A model generated the notes under the pieces. The model was not told where the DNA came from and did no database searches. It saw only the letters and a list, made by a program, of their open reading frames with translations. A DNA stretch of 64,000 nucleotides from Methanospirillum lacunae (lineage in GTDB: Archaea > Halobacteriota > Methanomicrobia > Methanomicrobiales > Methanospirillaceae): NCBI RefSeq assembly GCF_003173355.1, contig NZ_QGMY01000002.1, forward strand, positions 682,001 to 746,000, read 5' to 3'. How positions within the stretch are numbered: the first letter of the stretch is position 1; each line of letters opens with the position of its first letter. Of this stretch, positions 11,092 through 17,793 are shown in pieces. Position numbers and translations under genes: made by a program.

Positions 11092-11316
11092 TTAATCTAA
11101 AATCTCAATAATCTGGACTGGACAGGCATCAGATGCATTGAGTGAACAATCTTCAAGTTCAGGTGTAGGTGCTCCTTCAGCAATGTTTCCATTAATCCTG
11201 AACATCTCAATAATCTGACTCAATGAGTCATCCGGGTTTTGTTCAAACACTTTTGGGCATGTTTCCCAGCAGGTTCCGCAACTGGTACAATCTTTCCTGT
11301 CAATTTTTATGTTCAT
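11092..11316 (-). CDS. single-cluster [4Fe-4S] ferredoxin
   Basis: 74 residues. Cys10, Cys13 and Cys16 (CTSCGTC) with the distant Cys65 (DACPV) form one [4Fe-4S] site. Cys20 (ETCP) and Cys57 are left over from a second cluster whose CxxCxxC motif has been lost; in known one-cluster ferredoxins such cysteines can form a disulfide. A soluble electron carrier. It is 417 bases from the next minus-strand gene, so probably a separate unit, at the edge of the redox-rich region. The partner enzyme is not identifiable. Confidence 0.88.
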   Translation of the reverse strand: MNIKIDRKDCTSCGTCWETCPKVFEQNPDDSLSQIIEMFRINGNIAEGAPTPELEDCSLNASDACPVQIIEILD

Positions 11317-11733: not shown

Positions 11734-11988
11734 TCAATTATTATCTTGTTTCAGGTTTCCTGATCTAGGTCTTCTTGCCATTGAAAGATAAATGTGGATA
11801 ATAAGAAAAATAACCAATGGTCCCCACAGGAAGGAATGTATACGATTTGAAATCATTTTTCCGAGAATTCCCCCGGTAAGCGGTTCAATAATTCCCGGAT
11901 GTGTGATCCCGAGGCCAGTTAAAACCATAAGTATACTGAGAAACAGGATTGAATATTGAACAAATTTTTTAATTTCTTGTATTTTCAT
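11734..11988 (-). CDS. two-helix mini cytochrome b-like membrane protein
   Basis: 84 residues with two membrane helices, about 10-29 and 51-69. The second helix carries His51 and His65, 13 residues between them, the spacing used by transmembrane b-type cytochromes to bind two hemes across the bilayer; His30 lies at the end of helix 1. The basic tail MARRPR suggests a cytoplasmic C-terminus. It starts 3 bases after the stop of the molybdoprotein gene, so the two form an operon. By analogy to MsrQ/YedZ-type partners it may pass electrons to or from that enzyme. Too short to be MsrQ itself. Heme binding is inferred. Confidence 0.7.
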   Translation of the reverse strand: MKIQEIKKFVQYSILFLSILMVLTGLGITHPGIIEPLTGGILGKMISNRIHSFLWGPLVIFLIIHIYLSMARRPRSGNLKQDNN

Positions 11989-11991
11989 GCT

Positions 11992-12675
11992 TCATCCATA
12001 AAATGAACGATTGAGATCCCCACCTTGTGCATATCCCCTGCTTTCCCAATATCCCCGGTATGTCGGATCATTGGTTACTTCAATACCGGTTATCCATTTT
12101 ACCCATTTGTATCCCCATTTATCCTCAGCAACCAATTGGAATGGGAAACCACGTTCTCTGGGCAGAGTTACATTGTTCATCTGATAGGCCATTAATATTT
12201 GATTATCTATAAGGTATGACAAAGGGAATGAGGTAGTATATCCATCATCAGCGTGGAAAACAACAGTATTTGCTTCCTGTTTCAACCGTGCCAGATTAAG
12301 AATATCTTTCACCAGAATCCCATCCCAGAGGATCGTTACGTCCCATCCTTCAACACAATGGATCGTTACAACCTTACGGTATGAGGGGAATGATGTAAGA
12401 ACCTCATTATATGAAAGATTCAGCGGGTTTTCTATAAGCCCGGTAACCAACAGATGGTATGTCTGCGGATCGACTGTTCTAGGTCCTTTTATCGAATTTT
12501 CACGAAAATCATCCAAATTTCCGAGAGGAGTTCCCTCATATTCATGAACTTCAACAGAAGAAAGAACATTGTTCCCATTGTCAGAAAGAGAAGGACCACT
12601 ATTGAGTGTCATAATCCATATCCCCGTAACGAATAAAATTAGTAAAATTGTAATGACCAGACCTTTTCTTATCAT
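11992..12675 (-). CDS. sulfite-oxidase-fold molybdopterin oxidoreductase, membrane-anchored or secreted
   Basis: 227 residues. An N-terminal hydrophobic helix (about 5-23) is followed by the SUOX/MsrP-type Mo-pterin domain: LLVTGLIENPLNLSYNEVL, then Cys107 in TIHCVEGW, the expected molybdenum ligand, and VAEDKWGYKWVKWITGIEV near the end. The signal region starts MIRKGLV and lacks the twin-arginine motif usual for exported molybdoproteins. It is shorter than MsrP (about 330 in E. coli). Followed after 3 bases by the mini cytochrome b. Substrate unknown; candidates are sulfoxides, sulfite or similar small molecules. Confidence 0.85.
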   Translation of the reverse strand: MIRKGLVITILLILFVTGIWIMTLNSGPSLSDNGNNVLSSVEVHEYEGTPLGNLDDFRENSIKGPRTVDPQTYHLLVTGLIENPLNLSYNEVLTSFPSYRKVVTIHCVEGWDVTILWDGILVKDILNLARLKQEANTVVFHADDGYTTSFPLSYLIDNQILMAYQMNNVTLPRERGFPFQLVAEDKWGYKWVKWITGIEVTNDPTYRGYWESRGYAQGGDLNRSFYG

Positions 12676-12696: not shown

Positions 12697-13779
12697 TCAT
12701 AATTCACGATTCAAGGTTGGATAATCGATATAACCTTTATCTTCACCTGCATACCATGTCGAGATATCCGGAGAATTCAGCGGGGCATTTCTGAGGAAGC
12801 GTTCCGGGAGATCCGGGTTTGCAAGAAAAGATGTGCCAAATGAAATTAAATCTCCCTGGCATTCATTAATAGCATTATCTCCAGTTTTTTTATCATACCC
12901 GCCGTTAAGGATAAGGGTTCCACTAAATTTGGTTCGTATGGTAGAGGCCAGCTGTGCATTTTTAGGAGTAGCCCCAAACCTGCCTCCTACCGGTTCAATG
13001 AGATGAATATACCCAATTCCTAATCTATCCAATTCCTGTGCCAGATATGAATAGGTATTCTGCGGGTTGGAATCTGCCATACCATGCTGGAAAAAATGTG
13101 GCGATATCCGGTACCCTACACGGTTAGCATCCCATTCTGAAATGACTGCTTTTGTAATTTCAAGGGGCAAACGTGCCCTGTTCTCTAAACTTCCTCCATA
13201 CATATCGGTGCGGGTATTTGAACTGTCACGAAGAAACTGATCCAGTAAATACCCGTTTGCACCATGGATCTCAACTCCATCAAATCCAGCTGCTTTTGCA
13301 TTGCGAGCTCCGGCCCAAAATTGTTTAACAACCCCGGATATCTCTTCTGATTCAAGAGCCCTTGGAACGAGAATTTTCTTCTTCCCAAGAGGAGTGTGAA
13401 TTTCTTCATCAATCGGCAGAGCAGATGGTGCAACTGGAAGAGCACCATTAAGAAAGTCAGGATGTGACATCCTGCCTACATGCCAGAGTTGGAGAAAGAT
13501 CTTCCCTCCTGCTTTATGGACCCCGTCTGTCACTATTTTCCAGCCTTTTATCTGATCCTTTGAGTGTATACCGGGAGTCCGGTAAAACCCGATTCCCATA
13601 GGATCAACTTGGGAACCTTCGGAGATAATCAGACCGGCTGATGCTCTCTGTTCATAATACATGACAGACAACGGGTTTGGAATATTTCCGGCTACAGCAC
13701 GACAACGAGTCATCGGTGCCATCACCATCCGGTTATTTAGTTCTAAATCATTGAAAATATATTGAGAAAAAAGATTCAT
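12697..13779 (-). CDS. Old Yellow Enzyme-family NADH:flavin oxidoreductase (alkene reductase)
   Basis: 360 residues from ATG 13779. A TTG 16 codons upstream is possible but gives a non-homologous extension. FMN barrel motifs are RMVMAPMTRCRA, ISEGSQVDP, QLWHVGRMSHP, FDGVEIHGANGYLLDQFL, RTDMYGGSLENRARL and the phosphate site LILNGGYD. The active-site histidine/asparagine pair is HGAN and the proton-donor tyrosine is in MYGGS. It reduces activated C=C bonds using NAD(P)H. It ends 21 bases before the molybdoprotein start and may lead the same operon. Confidence 0.93.
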   Translation of the reverse strand: MNLFSQYIFNDLELNNRMVMAPMTRCRAVAGNIPNPLSVMYYEQRASAGLIISEGSQVDPMGIGFYRTPGIHSKDQIKGWKIVTDGVHKAGGKIFLQLWHVGRMSHPDFLNGALPVAPSALPIDEEIHTPLGKKKILVPRALESEEISGVVKQFWAGARNAKAAGFDGVEIHGANGYLLDQFLRDSSNTRTDMYGGSLENRARLPLEITKAVISEWDANRVGYRISPHFFQHGMADSNPQNTYSYLAQELDRLGIGYIHLIEPVGGRFGATPKNAQLASTIRTKFSGTLILNGGYDKKTGDNAINECQGDLISFGTSFLANPDLPERFLRNAPLNSPDISTWYAGEDKGYIDYPTLNREL

Positions 13780-14219
13780 GAGGCTTGATAAGTGCTGCCA
13801 TCTGATATATTTTTGTGTGTTATTCAATTATTGCTATATGGGATCTAAATCTAACCGTTTCTCCATGGTCATTAACATAAAATCATTACAATATGTATAA
13901 AATTACTAAATAACCTGAATTCATATCATGACAAGAAATTCAGAATAAAATAGTAAGATTTTTTTGCAATAATCTTATTCTGATACAATTACAAATACAG
14001 ATACGTGTGCAAACAGAAAGAATCTGCTATGATTTTGGAAAAAAATTCATCATATGATGACACTTGATAATGTATGGAATTCCCGGGACTAGGGTTGTTT
14101 GTATTAACATCCGTATTCTCTATGAATATTAGATTCACCCGTTTAATCTAAAGATTCCATAGGTGGTTGATGGCGATTGAATTGATACTTCATCCTGGAG
14201 AGGTATAAAGAACAATATT
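13780..14219. other. divergent intergenic region
   Basis: Between the leftward OYE gene and the rightward membrane-protein gene. Strongly AT-rich and with the promoters of both. A GGAGAGGT element at about 14195 is too far from the ATG at 14220 to be sure of a ribosome site. I see no additional gene. Confidence 0.3.
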
Positions 14220-14823: not shown

Positions 14824-15483
14824 TTAGAGTACAGCTTTTCTAAACGTATCGAAACCTAATCTCTCAATTGTTGCACCCAGACGTTCAGGAGCTATTCCAT
14901 TCTCCCTGTAGAAGGTGATGATCTTTCTGGCGAGATCAATAGCCTGATCCGGAGTCAAATCGTTAGCCAATTCTTTTCCAGCTTTTGGTGTCCCTCCACC
15001 CTTGCCACCCACAATCACATTGAATCCTGTATCTGTGCCGAAAAATCCAATATCTTTCATCCAAGAATCACTACAGCAGTTAGAACACCCTGAAACACCC
15101 ATCTTGAATTTTGCCGGTGCTGGTTTGCCGTAAAATTCTTTGTCTAGGGCTAATCCAAGACCCGGGCTATCCTGTTTAGCCTTTTTGCAGGCTCTCGTAC
15201 CTGGGCACATCTGAATGCTCCGGATTGTCAGACCAATGGCCTTGGAACTGTCAGTAAATTCAGACCAGGCATTGTCCAGATCTGCCTCGCTGATACCAAT
15301 GATGGCAATACGCTGAGCACCAGTAAGTTTTATAAATTTTGCACCATATTTTTCGGCAACATCTGCTATCTTTCGTAACAATGCAGGATCTGCAAATCCA
15401 CCCGGTATATGTGGTGAGATAGAGAATGTCATTAGATCTCTTTGAACAATTGCTCCCTTTTCGGGGATATTTGTTTGAGTCAT
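14824..15483 (-). CDS. small siroheme sulfite/nitrite reductase-like protein
   Basis: 219 residues, one half-repeat plus cofactor domain of the sulfite reductase family. The cysteines for the coupled siroheme-[4Fe-4S] centre are Cys93 and Cys99 (CPGTRAC, spacing C-x5-C) and Cys133 and Cys137 (CSNCC, spacing C-x3-C). An N-terminal ferredoxin-like half domain includes HIPGGFADP and KLTGAQRI. Single-repeat proteins of this size occur in methanogens as small assimilatory-type sulfite reductase-like proteins; real substrate is uncertain. It has no ferredoxin domain fused as in Fsr. Confidence 0.85.
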   Translation of the reverse strand: MTQTNIPEKGAIVQRDLMTFSISPHIPGGFADPALLRKIADVAEKYGAKFIKLTGAQRIAIIGISEADLDNAWSEFTDSSKAIGLTIRSIQMCPGTRACKKAKQDSPGLGLALDKEFYGKPAPAKFKMGVSGCSNCCSDSWMKDIGFFGTDTGFNVIVGGKGGGTPKAGKELANDLTPDQAIDLARKIITFYRENGIAPERLGATIERLGFDTFRKAVL

Positions 15484-15729: not shown

Positions 15730-16110
15730 TTAAGGATTAACATGTATTATTCCAACCATAGACGGGTGGGCACCGCAGTGATATGGATAATCACCGGCCT
15801 TGGTGAAATTATATGTAAACATTTCTCCTTTATTCAGGAGAGATGACTTGATTTCTGATACGGCTCCAGCGTCACTTATGATGTCATGACGGGCCGTGTC
15901 ATTATTTGTCCATGTTACTAACGAATTTACAGTTATATTTAGTTCCTTAGGTTCAAATGCAAAATTGGATATATTAACTGAATAATTTGTCAGATTATTA
16001 TCAACCTGAATTGTCTGATTTGTGTCAGTTACTGCTGAAACAGATATACCTAGCATTATAACTATAGTCAAACTTGTAACCAAACCATACATCACAACTT
16101 TTGAGACCAT
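15730..16110 (-). CDS. secreted type I copper protein (plastocyanin/halocyanin-like cupredoxin)
   Basis: 126 residues. A signal or anchor helix (about 5-26) is followed by a cupredoxin fold: ISNFAFEPKELNITVNSLVTWTNND, then His75 (TARHDI), and the C-terminal loop with Cys112, His115 and Met118 (HCGAHPSM). These are the four classic type I copper ligands. It would shuttle single electrons outside the membrane. It lies just 93 bases downstream of the quinoprotein-like propeller gene on the same strand, which suggests that the two are co-expressed. Confidence 0.9.
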   Translation of the reverse strand: MVSKVVMYGLVTSLTIVIMLGISVSAVTDTNQTIQVDNNLTNYSVNISNFAFEPKELNITVNSLVTWTNNDTARHDIISDAGAVSEIKSSLLNKGEMFTYNFTKAGDYPYHCGAHPSMVGIIHVNP

Positions 16111-16203: not shown

Positions 16204-17793
16204 TTAAGAAATCGGAAGACTGAGTGAGAAAAGAACCGGGTTTGACGCTGCTCCTGCTGGCCAGATGATGCTCTTCTTTCCGATAGCTGGCCAACCATTA
16301 ATTCCGGAAGGGGCTTTATACTTTAAAACTAAGTCTCCGGTTTTTATCTTATATGCATAAATCGTTCCATCATAGGTTGCAGTAAAAACGATATCAGAAG
16401 CTATGGTAGCCCCTCCGAGATTCATTGATGGATATTCTTTTTTCCATAATTCGGTACCGTTTGATGCATCAAGGGCCACCAGTTCACCAGTTCCCGAAGA
16501 TAGATCAAATGAACCCGTATCCATCCCGGTTGAAGAATAATTAGAGGCAAAATTGACAACAGGCACAAATAGTATTCCATCTGTATAGGCCATTGGTGTT
16601 TCAACTCCTCCAAAAAATCCTGGTAAAACCTGTATGGTTTCTCCTTCCGGTATTGTGCTTAGATCAGCATTTCCATTATGAATGCCAACTGAAGTATTCC
16701 AGATTATTGATCCATCTTTTCTATCAAATGAGTATACTTTTCCGAGTTTTCCTGCACCGAACACAACATCACGTGTTTTTGATTCATCAGTACTATCCGG
16801 GATGGATGCAAGGATCGGGGAAATCTGAAAATCAAGATCAAAAAGATCATGAGGTTTTACCTGATTATACCAGACAATCTCTCCGCTCTTTCCATCCACA
16901 GCCATGATACTATCTGTATAAAGATTTGGTCCAGGCCTGCTCAATCCGGCAGGATAATCAGGTGTTCCCGGGATTGGGGCAGGATTTCCAATACCCCAGT
17001 ACGTAATACCGGTTCTGGTATCAATACCCGGGGAATACCAGGCCCCTCCTCCACTGTTCACTGATTTATTTCCCCAGAGGTCAGGTGTATCAATCGTGCT
17101 GGTATTCCAGATGATGGCTCCGGTTTCTTCATCAAGGGCATACAATTCACCAAATTGACCTCCTGCATAAAAATCATTGGCCGATGTACCCGGGACTGTT
17201 GCAACATACACTTTTTTATCAAAGACAATAGGCTGAATATTAATTCCGGTAGAATTTGAAGGAGATAAATGAACGGACCATCGTTCAGTGCCGTCTTTCA
17301 TATCAAGGGCAGATAGTGAATACACATCGGGAGAAATAAAGACTTTTCCGTATCCTATAGCAGGTCCATTCGGGCCCAATATTGTAGAACTATTATAATT
17401 ATTAGTCCAAAGTGGAGTGCCTGTTTGCTGGTTAAGAGCAATAATATTTCCTGCCAAATCCTGAAAATAGACAGTATTATTGGTAATTATTGGGGTTGTT
17501 GCCGCAGAACCAAAAGCGGAATGACCGGTTATTGGATAAGTCCACGATAGATTGAATTTTCCAACCGACTCTGATGAGATATCTGTCTCCTGTTGGTCTC
17601 GTGTATTTGAATAGTCCTTATTAGCGAGAGGCCAGGACTGATTCGTATCCTGTATCTCTGGCGGTGCAAGTGTCAGATCTTCGGAAGATGCCTTTTCTTG
17701 GATATTTACTTCGGCGATACAGCAAAATCCTGCTCCAATGAAAGAATACAGGAGAATTATCAAAAAAATATTTCTGAACCAGGAATGCGACAT
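16204..17793 (-). CDS. secreted quinoprotein-dehydrogenase-like beta-propeller
   Basis: 529 residues with an N-terminal hydrophobic helix and an eight-bladed propeller of the PQQ alcohol dehydrogenase type. Docking repeats such as LYALDEETGAIIW and IMAVDGKSGEIVWY are clear. Residues 269-273 (GNPAP) and 313-319 (KPHDLFD) match methanol-dehydrogenase-like enzymes. At 286-290 the sequence is RPGPN where active enzymes have RPGDN, so the catalytic Asp is replaced by Pro. There is no vicinal Cys pair in the propeller. It may bind no quinone, or act as a scaffold. Upstream of the cupredoxin. Confidence 0.85.
   Translation of the reverse strand: MSHSWFRNIFLIILLYSFIGAGFCCIAEVNIQEKASSEDLTLAPPEIQDTNQSWPLANKDYSNTRDQQETDISSESVGKFNLSWTYPITGHSAFGSAATTPIITNNTVYFQDLAGNIIALNQQTGTPLWTNNYNSSTILGPNGPAIGYGKVFISPDVYSLSALDMKDGTERWSVHLSPSNSTGINIQPIVFDKKVYVATVPGTSANDFYAGGQFGELYALDEETGAIIWNTSTIDTPDLWGNKSVNSGGGAWYSPGIDTRTGITYWGIGNPAPIPGTPDYPAGLSRPGPNLYTDSIMAVDGKSGEIVWYNQVKPHDLFDLDFQISPILASIPDSTDESKTRDVVFGAGKLGKVYSFDRKDGSIIWNTSVGIHNGNADLSTIPEGETIQVLPGFFGGVETPMAYTDGILFVPVVNFASNYSSTGMDTGSFDLSSGTGELVALDASNGTELWKKEYPSMNLGGATIASDIVFTATYDGTIYAYKIKTGDLVLKYKAPSGINGWPAIGKKSIIWPAGAASNPVLFSLSLPIS

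Follow-up and report, generated by a model that had tools for sequence, protein, structure and literature searches.

Results and discussion

The window, by which I mean the whole 64,000-nucleotide stretch of Methanospirillum lacunae DNA that was analysed, encodes a pair of proteins that I am inclined to read as an MsrP-like, extracytoplasmic methionine-sulfoxide reductase module in which MsrQ is replaced by half of a cytochrome b561, probably as a dimer. The two open reading frames lie on the minus strand, at 12675..11992 (227 aa) and 11988..11734 (84 aa), with 3 nt between them. The first is a gene for a sulfite-oxidase-fold molybdoprotein with an MsrP-like active site and an N-terminal signal anchor, assigned from PF00174, an alignment with MsrP and profile matches; the second, assigned from PF01292, an alignment of homologues and an AF2 model, is a gene for a two-helix half-b561 cytochrome of what is called class A below. 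The first-pass annotation had already proposed a sulfite-oxidase-fold enzyme with Cys107 at its active site and a partner with His51 and His65 in H-x13-H spacing, and the reading frames, the PF00174 match and the located codons bear this out.

Twenty-one nucleotides upstream of the Mo gene lies an old-yellow-enzyme family gene (12697..13827, minus strand; PF00724, E=2.3e-74) that is probably co-transcribed with the pair at this locus, and downstream of the pair is a gene for a single-cluster 4Fe-4S ferredoxin (11092..11316, minus strand; PF13370, E=4.3e-14), a possible local electron donor. Both were considered as members of the module and dropped because neither is conserved beside the pair: the old-yellow-enzyme gene has no relative in the other fetched neighbourhoods, and the ferredoxin gene, weakly conserved, has relatives in only three. 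Also near the pair in the window are genes for a protein with a NirB-like sulfite/nitrite reductase domain, a secreted cupredoxin and a PQQ-type beta-propeller protein (14824-15483, 15730-16110 and 16204-17793).

The molybdoprotein

The Mo protein matches PF00174 with E=5.5e-35 and 120.9 bits, above the curated cut-off of 24. Among 34 aligned Mo-protein sequences the invariant residues include Cys107, G110, W111, D144-G145 and W187-G188-Y189-K190-W191. Cys107, the predicted Mo ligand (codon 12355..12357, minus strand), is thus invariant, and it also aligns with the Mo-ligand cysteine of E. coli MsrP; the two proteins are 23% identical, and the ligand stands in CVEAW in E. coli and in CVEGW here. 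I take the glutamate of this CVExW motif to be characteristic of MsrP (1xdq). The closest solved sequences in a profile search are the SorA sulfite dehydrogenases, SoxC, MsrP (1xdq) and sulfite oxidases. Against the MsrP equivalog NF003767 the Mo protein scores 55.4 bits where the cut-off is 207, and it is therefore labelled MsrP-like rather than MsrP. The long insert that MsrP carries before the aligned YVEG stretch is absent, which, like the low identity, weighs against the reductase reading; the sulfite-oxidase dimerisation domain is absent too. Structures were compared with a fused homologue (see below) modelled by AF2 at a mean pLDDT of 80.6. Its predicted Mo domain superposes on SoxC (Z 19.5), SorA (Z 18.7) and MsrP 1xdq (Z 16.2, 174 residues, 3.0 A); for the pterin-binding PruR proteins the match is weaker (Z 12-14). 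Judged by these sequence features, the protein would bind Moco and be catalytically active.

Other genes with this fold were seen along the way. About 973 kb into contig C2 of the same genome is a gene for an exported lipoprotein (L045:1510-2094, minus strand) that matches PF00174 at E 1e-8 and has no CVExW Mo-ligand motif; it overlaps a gene for a solute-binding protein (SBP_bac_11), lies near one for an ABC ATPase, and possibly encodes a PruR-like binder of pterin or oxyanion. About 4 kb from it, near 977 kb of C2, is a gene for a 703-aa secreted protein (L046:391-2502, minus strand; PF00174, E 1.6e-7) with apparently repeated similar domains. Very long open frames of roughly 1000-2350 aa with weak sulfite-oxidase-like domains occur in many Methanomicrobiales (for example G096:C1:1583870, G058:C1:2342121 and G042:C1:1322726), and these are perhaps non-Mo binding domains of surface proteins.

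The small protein

The 84-aa protein matches PF01292 at profile positions 100-168 of 179 (E=8.9e-7), which is the TM3-TM4 half, and the 29.3 bits that it gains from this half of the profile leave it 0.8 bits short of the gathering score of 30.1. PF01292 is matched at E<0.1 by 17 of 18 aligned class A members and DUF4405 (PF14358) by 14 of the 18, the window protein itself not being one of the 14. An alignment of 36 class A proteins shows no variation at G25, K44, H51 or H65, and the two histidines, spaced H-x13-H, are thereby conserved far above chance. A profile of the small protein matches FdnI of formate dehydrogenase-N (E=0.0076) and places H-x13-H on His155 and His169 of FdnI TM4, which are heme ligands there; the first half of FdnI also matches. 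His51 (codon 11836..11838, minus strand) is the predicted outer heme ligand, equivalent to FdnI His155, and His65 (codon 11794..11796, minus strand) the predicted inner one, equivalent to His169. Two helices, at residues 3-29 and 44-70, make up the AF2 model (pLDDT 86), and the four or more helices per chain of the PF01292 type are not found. Comparing termini with the interhelix loop, net charges are +2.7, +0.8 and +2.2 in class A and +0.5, -0.1 and +3.0 in class B, a second, DUF4405-like class of partners that has H-x13-H in common with class A; this pattern suggests that both termini are inside and the loop outside. An 84-aa hairpin proved too unspecific for structure search to count as proof (best Foldseek E 3.1, with TM3-TM4 of HyaC amid many helical matches), and when the small protein by itself was searched directly against PDB sequences, it gave only chance matches, to peptidyl-tRNA hydrolase.

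By its sequence the small protein is half of a cytochrome b561. The partner had been described at first pass as small and cytochrome-b-like, which the half-profile match to PF01292 and the FdnI alignment uphold; it is no unknown kind of cytochrome, such halves having been known as arCOG04002/DUF4405 since 2015 (PMC5898192). In that paper Makarova and colleagues describe the two-helix arCOG04002/DUF4405 proteins as half of cytochrome b561, and heme b binding has been shown for one DUF4405 protein after purification (PMC11334425). Heme b binding by the window protein is a plausible prediction. Since the other two ligands come from a TM1-TM2 half that is missing here, a dimer would be needed; each chain would probably give one ligand at each heme level, and the dimer would hold two bis-His hemes.

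The same genome carries a second two-helix DUF4405 cytochrome-like gene (L130:1453-1713, minus strand, about 202 kb into contig C7; E 7.3e-9), followed by a gene for a 106-aa secreted protein with the motif CPKGFHCSCPGCPLYSDLDEDSFCDRG and no Pfam match (L130:1123-1443, minus strand).

Pairing across the Methanomicrobiales

The neighbourhoods of 81 Mo genes of Methanomicrobiales (80 fetched loci and the window) were examined, neighbour families being assigned by scanning the closest genes with Pfam. A half-cytochrome partner adjoins 58 of the 81, and every one of these partners has H-x13-H. Class A accounts for 36 of them, on the same strand as the Mo gene. The other 22 are class B and lie on the opposite strand, in most cases converging with the Mo gene, typically at a distance of 14-57 nt (L054-L114). 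At two loci on MAG contigs with bacterial titles (L013 and L027) the class B domain is fused ahead of the Mo domain, and in the L013 fusion each domain scores above its cut-off (DUF4405, E 4.8e-8; PF00174, E 2.2e-35). On a weakly supported FastTree phylogeny of the Mo proteins the partner type switches between A and B about four times, which suggests that a two-helix H-x13-H partner has been kept while its type and orientation changed.

The association also holds for whole genomes. Among the 229 genomes of the order, a half cytochrome occurs in 71 of the 83 with the Mo gene and in 21 of the 146 without it (Fisher p=2e-27, a statistic uncorrected for phylogeny). Some genomes without an adjoining partner have their cytochrome gene elsewhere, and 12 of the 83 have no detectable half cytochrome anywhere. 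One genus (g25, L092-L112) has Mo genes without an adjoining cytochrome and with a rubredoxin gene divergently upstream; many of its loci also have a gene for an AMP-binding enzyme downstream. Several bacterial Mo homologues have no partner nearby. The 12 genomes, the partnerless genes of this genus and these homologues weigh against the module as read here. At one further locus the Mo gene is followed by a different two-helix H-x13-H protein (L012:4652-4882), weakly Ferric_reduct-like (E 0.015), which is possibly a third partner type.

Direction of electron flow and substrate

The Mo protein would leave the cell by the Sec route and stay signal-anchored (often as a lipoprotein in relatives), its active site outside. 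The 84-aa protein would span the membrane twice, N- and C-termini inside and the two histidines of helix 2 near the outer and inner faces, and two copies would form a four-helix bundle with two bis-His hemes. Electrons would then pass from the cytoplasm through the inner and then the outer heme to Mo, where an oxidised substrate would be reduced, as by MsrP with MsrQ; the likeliest is methionine sulfoxide in proteins of the cell surface. From cofactors (Moco and heme b) and dimer to topology, electron direction and substrate, this scheme is deduced rather than observed.

Gene neighbourhoods bear on the reaction. At five unrelated loci msrA or msrB adjoins the Mo gene: msrB at L013 (overlapping the fusion), L034 (in the order msrA-msrB-Mo), L016 and L110, and msrA at L043. 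If the background is assumed to be about 2 msr genes per 2500 genes, the expectation for 109 loci is just 0.17. Rubredoxin relatives occur in 18 neighbourhoods and are the nearest upstream gene in 13. An MsrP-type active site, a b-type membrane partner and the msr and rubredoxin neighbours together favour sulfoxide reduction, and extracytoplasmic reduction of methionine sulfoxide (or a related S- or N-oxide) is the best-supported reaction. The original suggestion of a new reductase or oxidase type was too strong: with its CVExW motif and msrA/msrB neighbours, the enzyme looks like a reductase of the MsrP kind that has another membrane partner.

The reverse direction, in which the Mo enzyme would oxidise a small external substrate such as sulfite and send electrons inward through the half cytochrome, seems unlikely to me. 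SorA, SoxC and animal sulfite oxidase do match as well as MsrP in profile and structure comparisons, and b cytochromes of the FdnI and HyaC type carry electrons inward. However, the active-site motif is that of MsrP, a protein of 227 aa in total has no sulfite-oxidase dimerisation domain, msr and rubredoxin genes are the neighbours, and these methanogens are not known to use quinones or methanophenazine.

Heme and Moco supply

If the half cytochrome of the reductase module holds heme b, the source of that heme is an issue, since no known heme pathway is found in the host: its genome lacks AhbA/B, and it lacks AhbC/D, the best match reaching 130 bits against about 300 in relatives. AhbA/B is also absent from 40 of the 71 genomes with both the Mo and the cytochrome gene, single-contig genomes included, and presence of the pair does not correlate with the heme operon (p=0.24). 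These observations speak for a small protein that has no heme b in the host and carries either another siroheme-derived tetrapyrrole or no cofactor, yet I consider this doubtful: both histidines remain invariant, and supplied heme can be used without synthesis, as it is for the catalase of Methanobrevibacter arboriphilus, a methanogen that does not make heme (PMC5467289).

AhbA/B is patchy in the Methanomicrobiales as a whole (87 of 229 genomes) and varies within the genus of the window. The literature records heme genes as absent in Methanospirillum hungatei and present in Methanoculleus, Methanoregula and Methanosphaerula (PMC3004389). Moco synthesis, in turn, is likely in the host because its genome has eight MoeA-like places, on contigs C8 and C21, several of them in tandem.

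Proposed export without Tat

An exported-type Mo enzyme without a Tat signal, as claimed by the first-pass annotation, is what the data continue to indicate. No twin arginine occurs in the N-terminal sequence MIRKG-LVITILLILFVTGIWIMT, and the hydrophobic helix at residues 6-27 (12595..12660, minus strand), identified from the translation and from homologues with signal anchors or lipoboxes, is a predicted Sec-type signal anchor. Only a single codon separates the upstream stop from the ATG (the open frame has 228 codons), so an upstream Tat-type start is impossible. Of the three outcomes that the first-pass annotation had named as refuting (unconserved His51 and His65, no co-occurrence of the pair, such a start), none turned up. 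TatC exceeded its cut-off in 0 of the 229 Methanomicrobiales genomes, in a search with positive controls that included Methanosarcina acetivorans. The N-termini of 104 homologues are mostly plain signal anchors, with a lipobox match in 28. A loose RR-x-hydrophobic pattern occurs in five, always ahead of the probable start or the hydrophobic core; a Methanoculleus homologue, for instance, begins MRIGRRTG, which is not a canonical Tat motif. None of the five, judged by eye, appears to be a convincing Tat signal. In the fusions, three helices and a basic cytoplasmic loop come before the Mo domain, and this loop precedes the third helix, which would place the Mo domain outside.

I know of no bacterial or archaeal precedent for Sec export of a Moco enzyme, and without Tat there is no known way to export a folded one, which counts against the reductase module as read here. 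Two systems are relevant: mitochondrial sulfite oxidase receives Moco after translocation across a membrane (PMC10574614), and PruR demonstrates that the sulfite-oxidase fold can be exported and bind pterin in the periplasm (PMC13259868). Tentatively, and with rather more doubt than belief, I suggest that in this Tat-less order the Mo enzyme is exported unfolded by Sec, receives its cofactor outside, and is coupled to a half-cytochrome-b homodimer whose heme or other tetrapyrrole the cell does not make.

PruR also suggests a redox sensor, in which the Mo protein would contain no Mo in vivo and would bind a pterin picked up outside. Tat would not be required, PruR is likewise a small exported protein of this fold that binds pterins in the periplasm (PMC13259868), its structures match the fused model at the Z of 12-14 given above, and the same genome has the exported lipoprotein without the Mo-ligand motif. 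I nevertheless regard the sensor as improbable: in PruR a tryptophan stands in place of the Mo-ligand cysteine (PMC13259868), but here Cys107 does not vary and the active site is still CVExW. A Mo domain held on the cytoplasmic side by its N-terminal membrane anchor would fit the lack of Tat in 229 genomes, but is very improbable in view of the positive residues ahead of the anchor, the lipoboxes of homologues, and the three helices and basic cytoplasmic loop that precede the domain in fusions.

Comparison with known systems

The proposed reductase module most resembles MsrPQ (YedYZ) of Gram-negative bacteria, which also combines a sulfite-oxidase-fold catalytic subunit, lacking a dimerisation domain and bearing Cys-Val-Glu-x-Trp, with a membrane b-type cytochrome, in an extracytoplasmic location that is predicted for the window pair. 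It differs in that the window Mo protein has no Tat signal, is shorter (227 versus 334 aa) and shares only the 23% identity noted above, that the partner is an 84-aa two-helix half-b561 rather than the larger, ferric-reductase-like MsrQ, and that the host is quinone-free. The arCOG04002/DUF4405 (PF14358) proteins share two helices with H-x13-H on the second and a relationship to PF01292, and class B partners and the fusions match DUF4405, whereas the window protein, being class A, is nearer PF01292. The DUF4405 protein shown to bind heme (PMC11334425) has six helices and not two. The helix with H-x13-H and the one before it align with TM3-TM4 of FdnI (FdnI/HyaC, PF01292), but the window protein is half as long and has no TM1-TM2 half. 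PruR is similarly a small exported sulfite-oxidase-fold protein, but with Trp for the Mo-ligand Cys that the window protein keeps (Cys107), and with signalling-protein partners. Mitochondrial sulfite oxidase likewise matures from apo-enzyme with Moco outside the cytosol (PMC10574614), but it has cytochrome b5 and dimerisation domains and resides in the intermembrane space rather than at an archaeal cell exterior.

In the sections of PMC5898192 and PMC11334425 covered, no mention was found of a Mo enzyme paired with DUF4405, a term search of PMC9478090, a survey of cytochrome b methanogens, did not find the pair, and no description of PF00174 paired with DUF4405 or half b561 was found in the open-licence PMC literature. 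That literature appears to contain no report of a Tat-less enzyme of the MsrP kind paired with a half cytochrome, of the distribution of such pairs in the Methanomicrobiales or of their mismatch with heme synthesis.

Significance

Methanomicrobiales are treated as methanogens without cytochromes. Despite this view, 83 of 229 genomes of the order have the Mo enzyme and 71 of these the half cytochrome as well. If the export scheme suggested above is true, molybdoenzymes would be exported by a route that does not involve Tat, and methanogens regarded as "cytochrome-free" would have a cytochrome of the b type. Half cytochromes are one possible use for the heme genes of cytochrome-free Methanoculleus, Methanoregula and Methanosphaerula (genes listed in PMC3004389). 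The pair poses two testable questions: how a Moco enzyme leaves the cell without Tat, and where the heme comes from in cells that do not synthesise it. Finally, it suggests a simple, quinone-free counterpart of MsrPQ, which in strict anaerobes may guard surface proteins against damage by oxygen.
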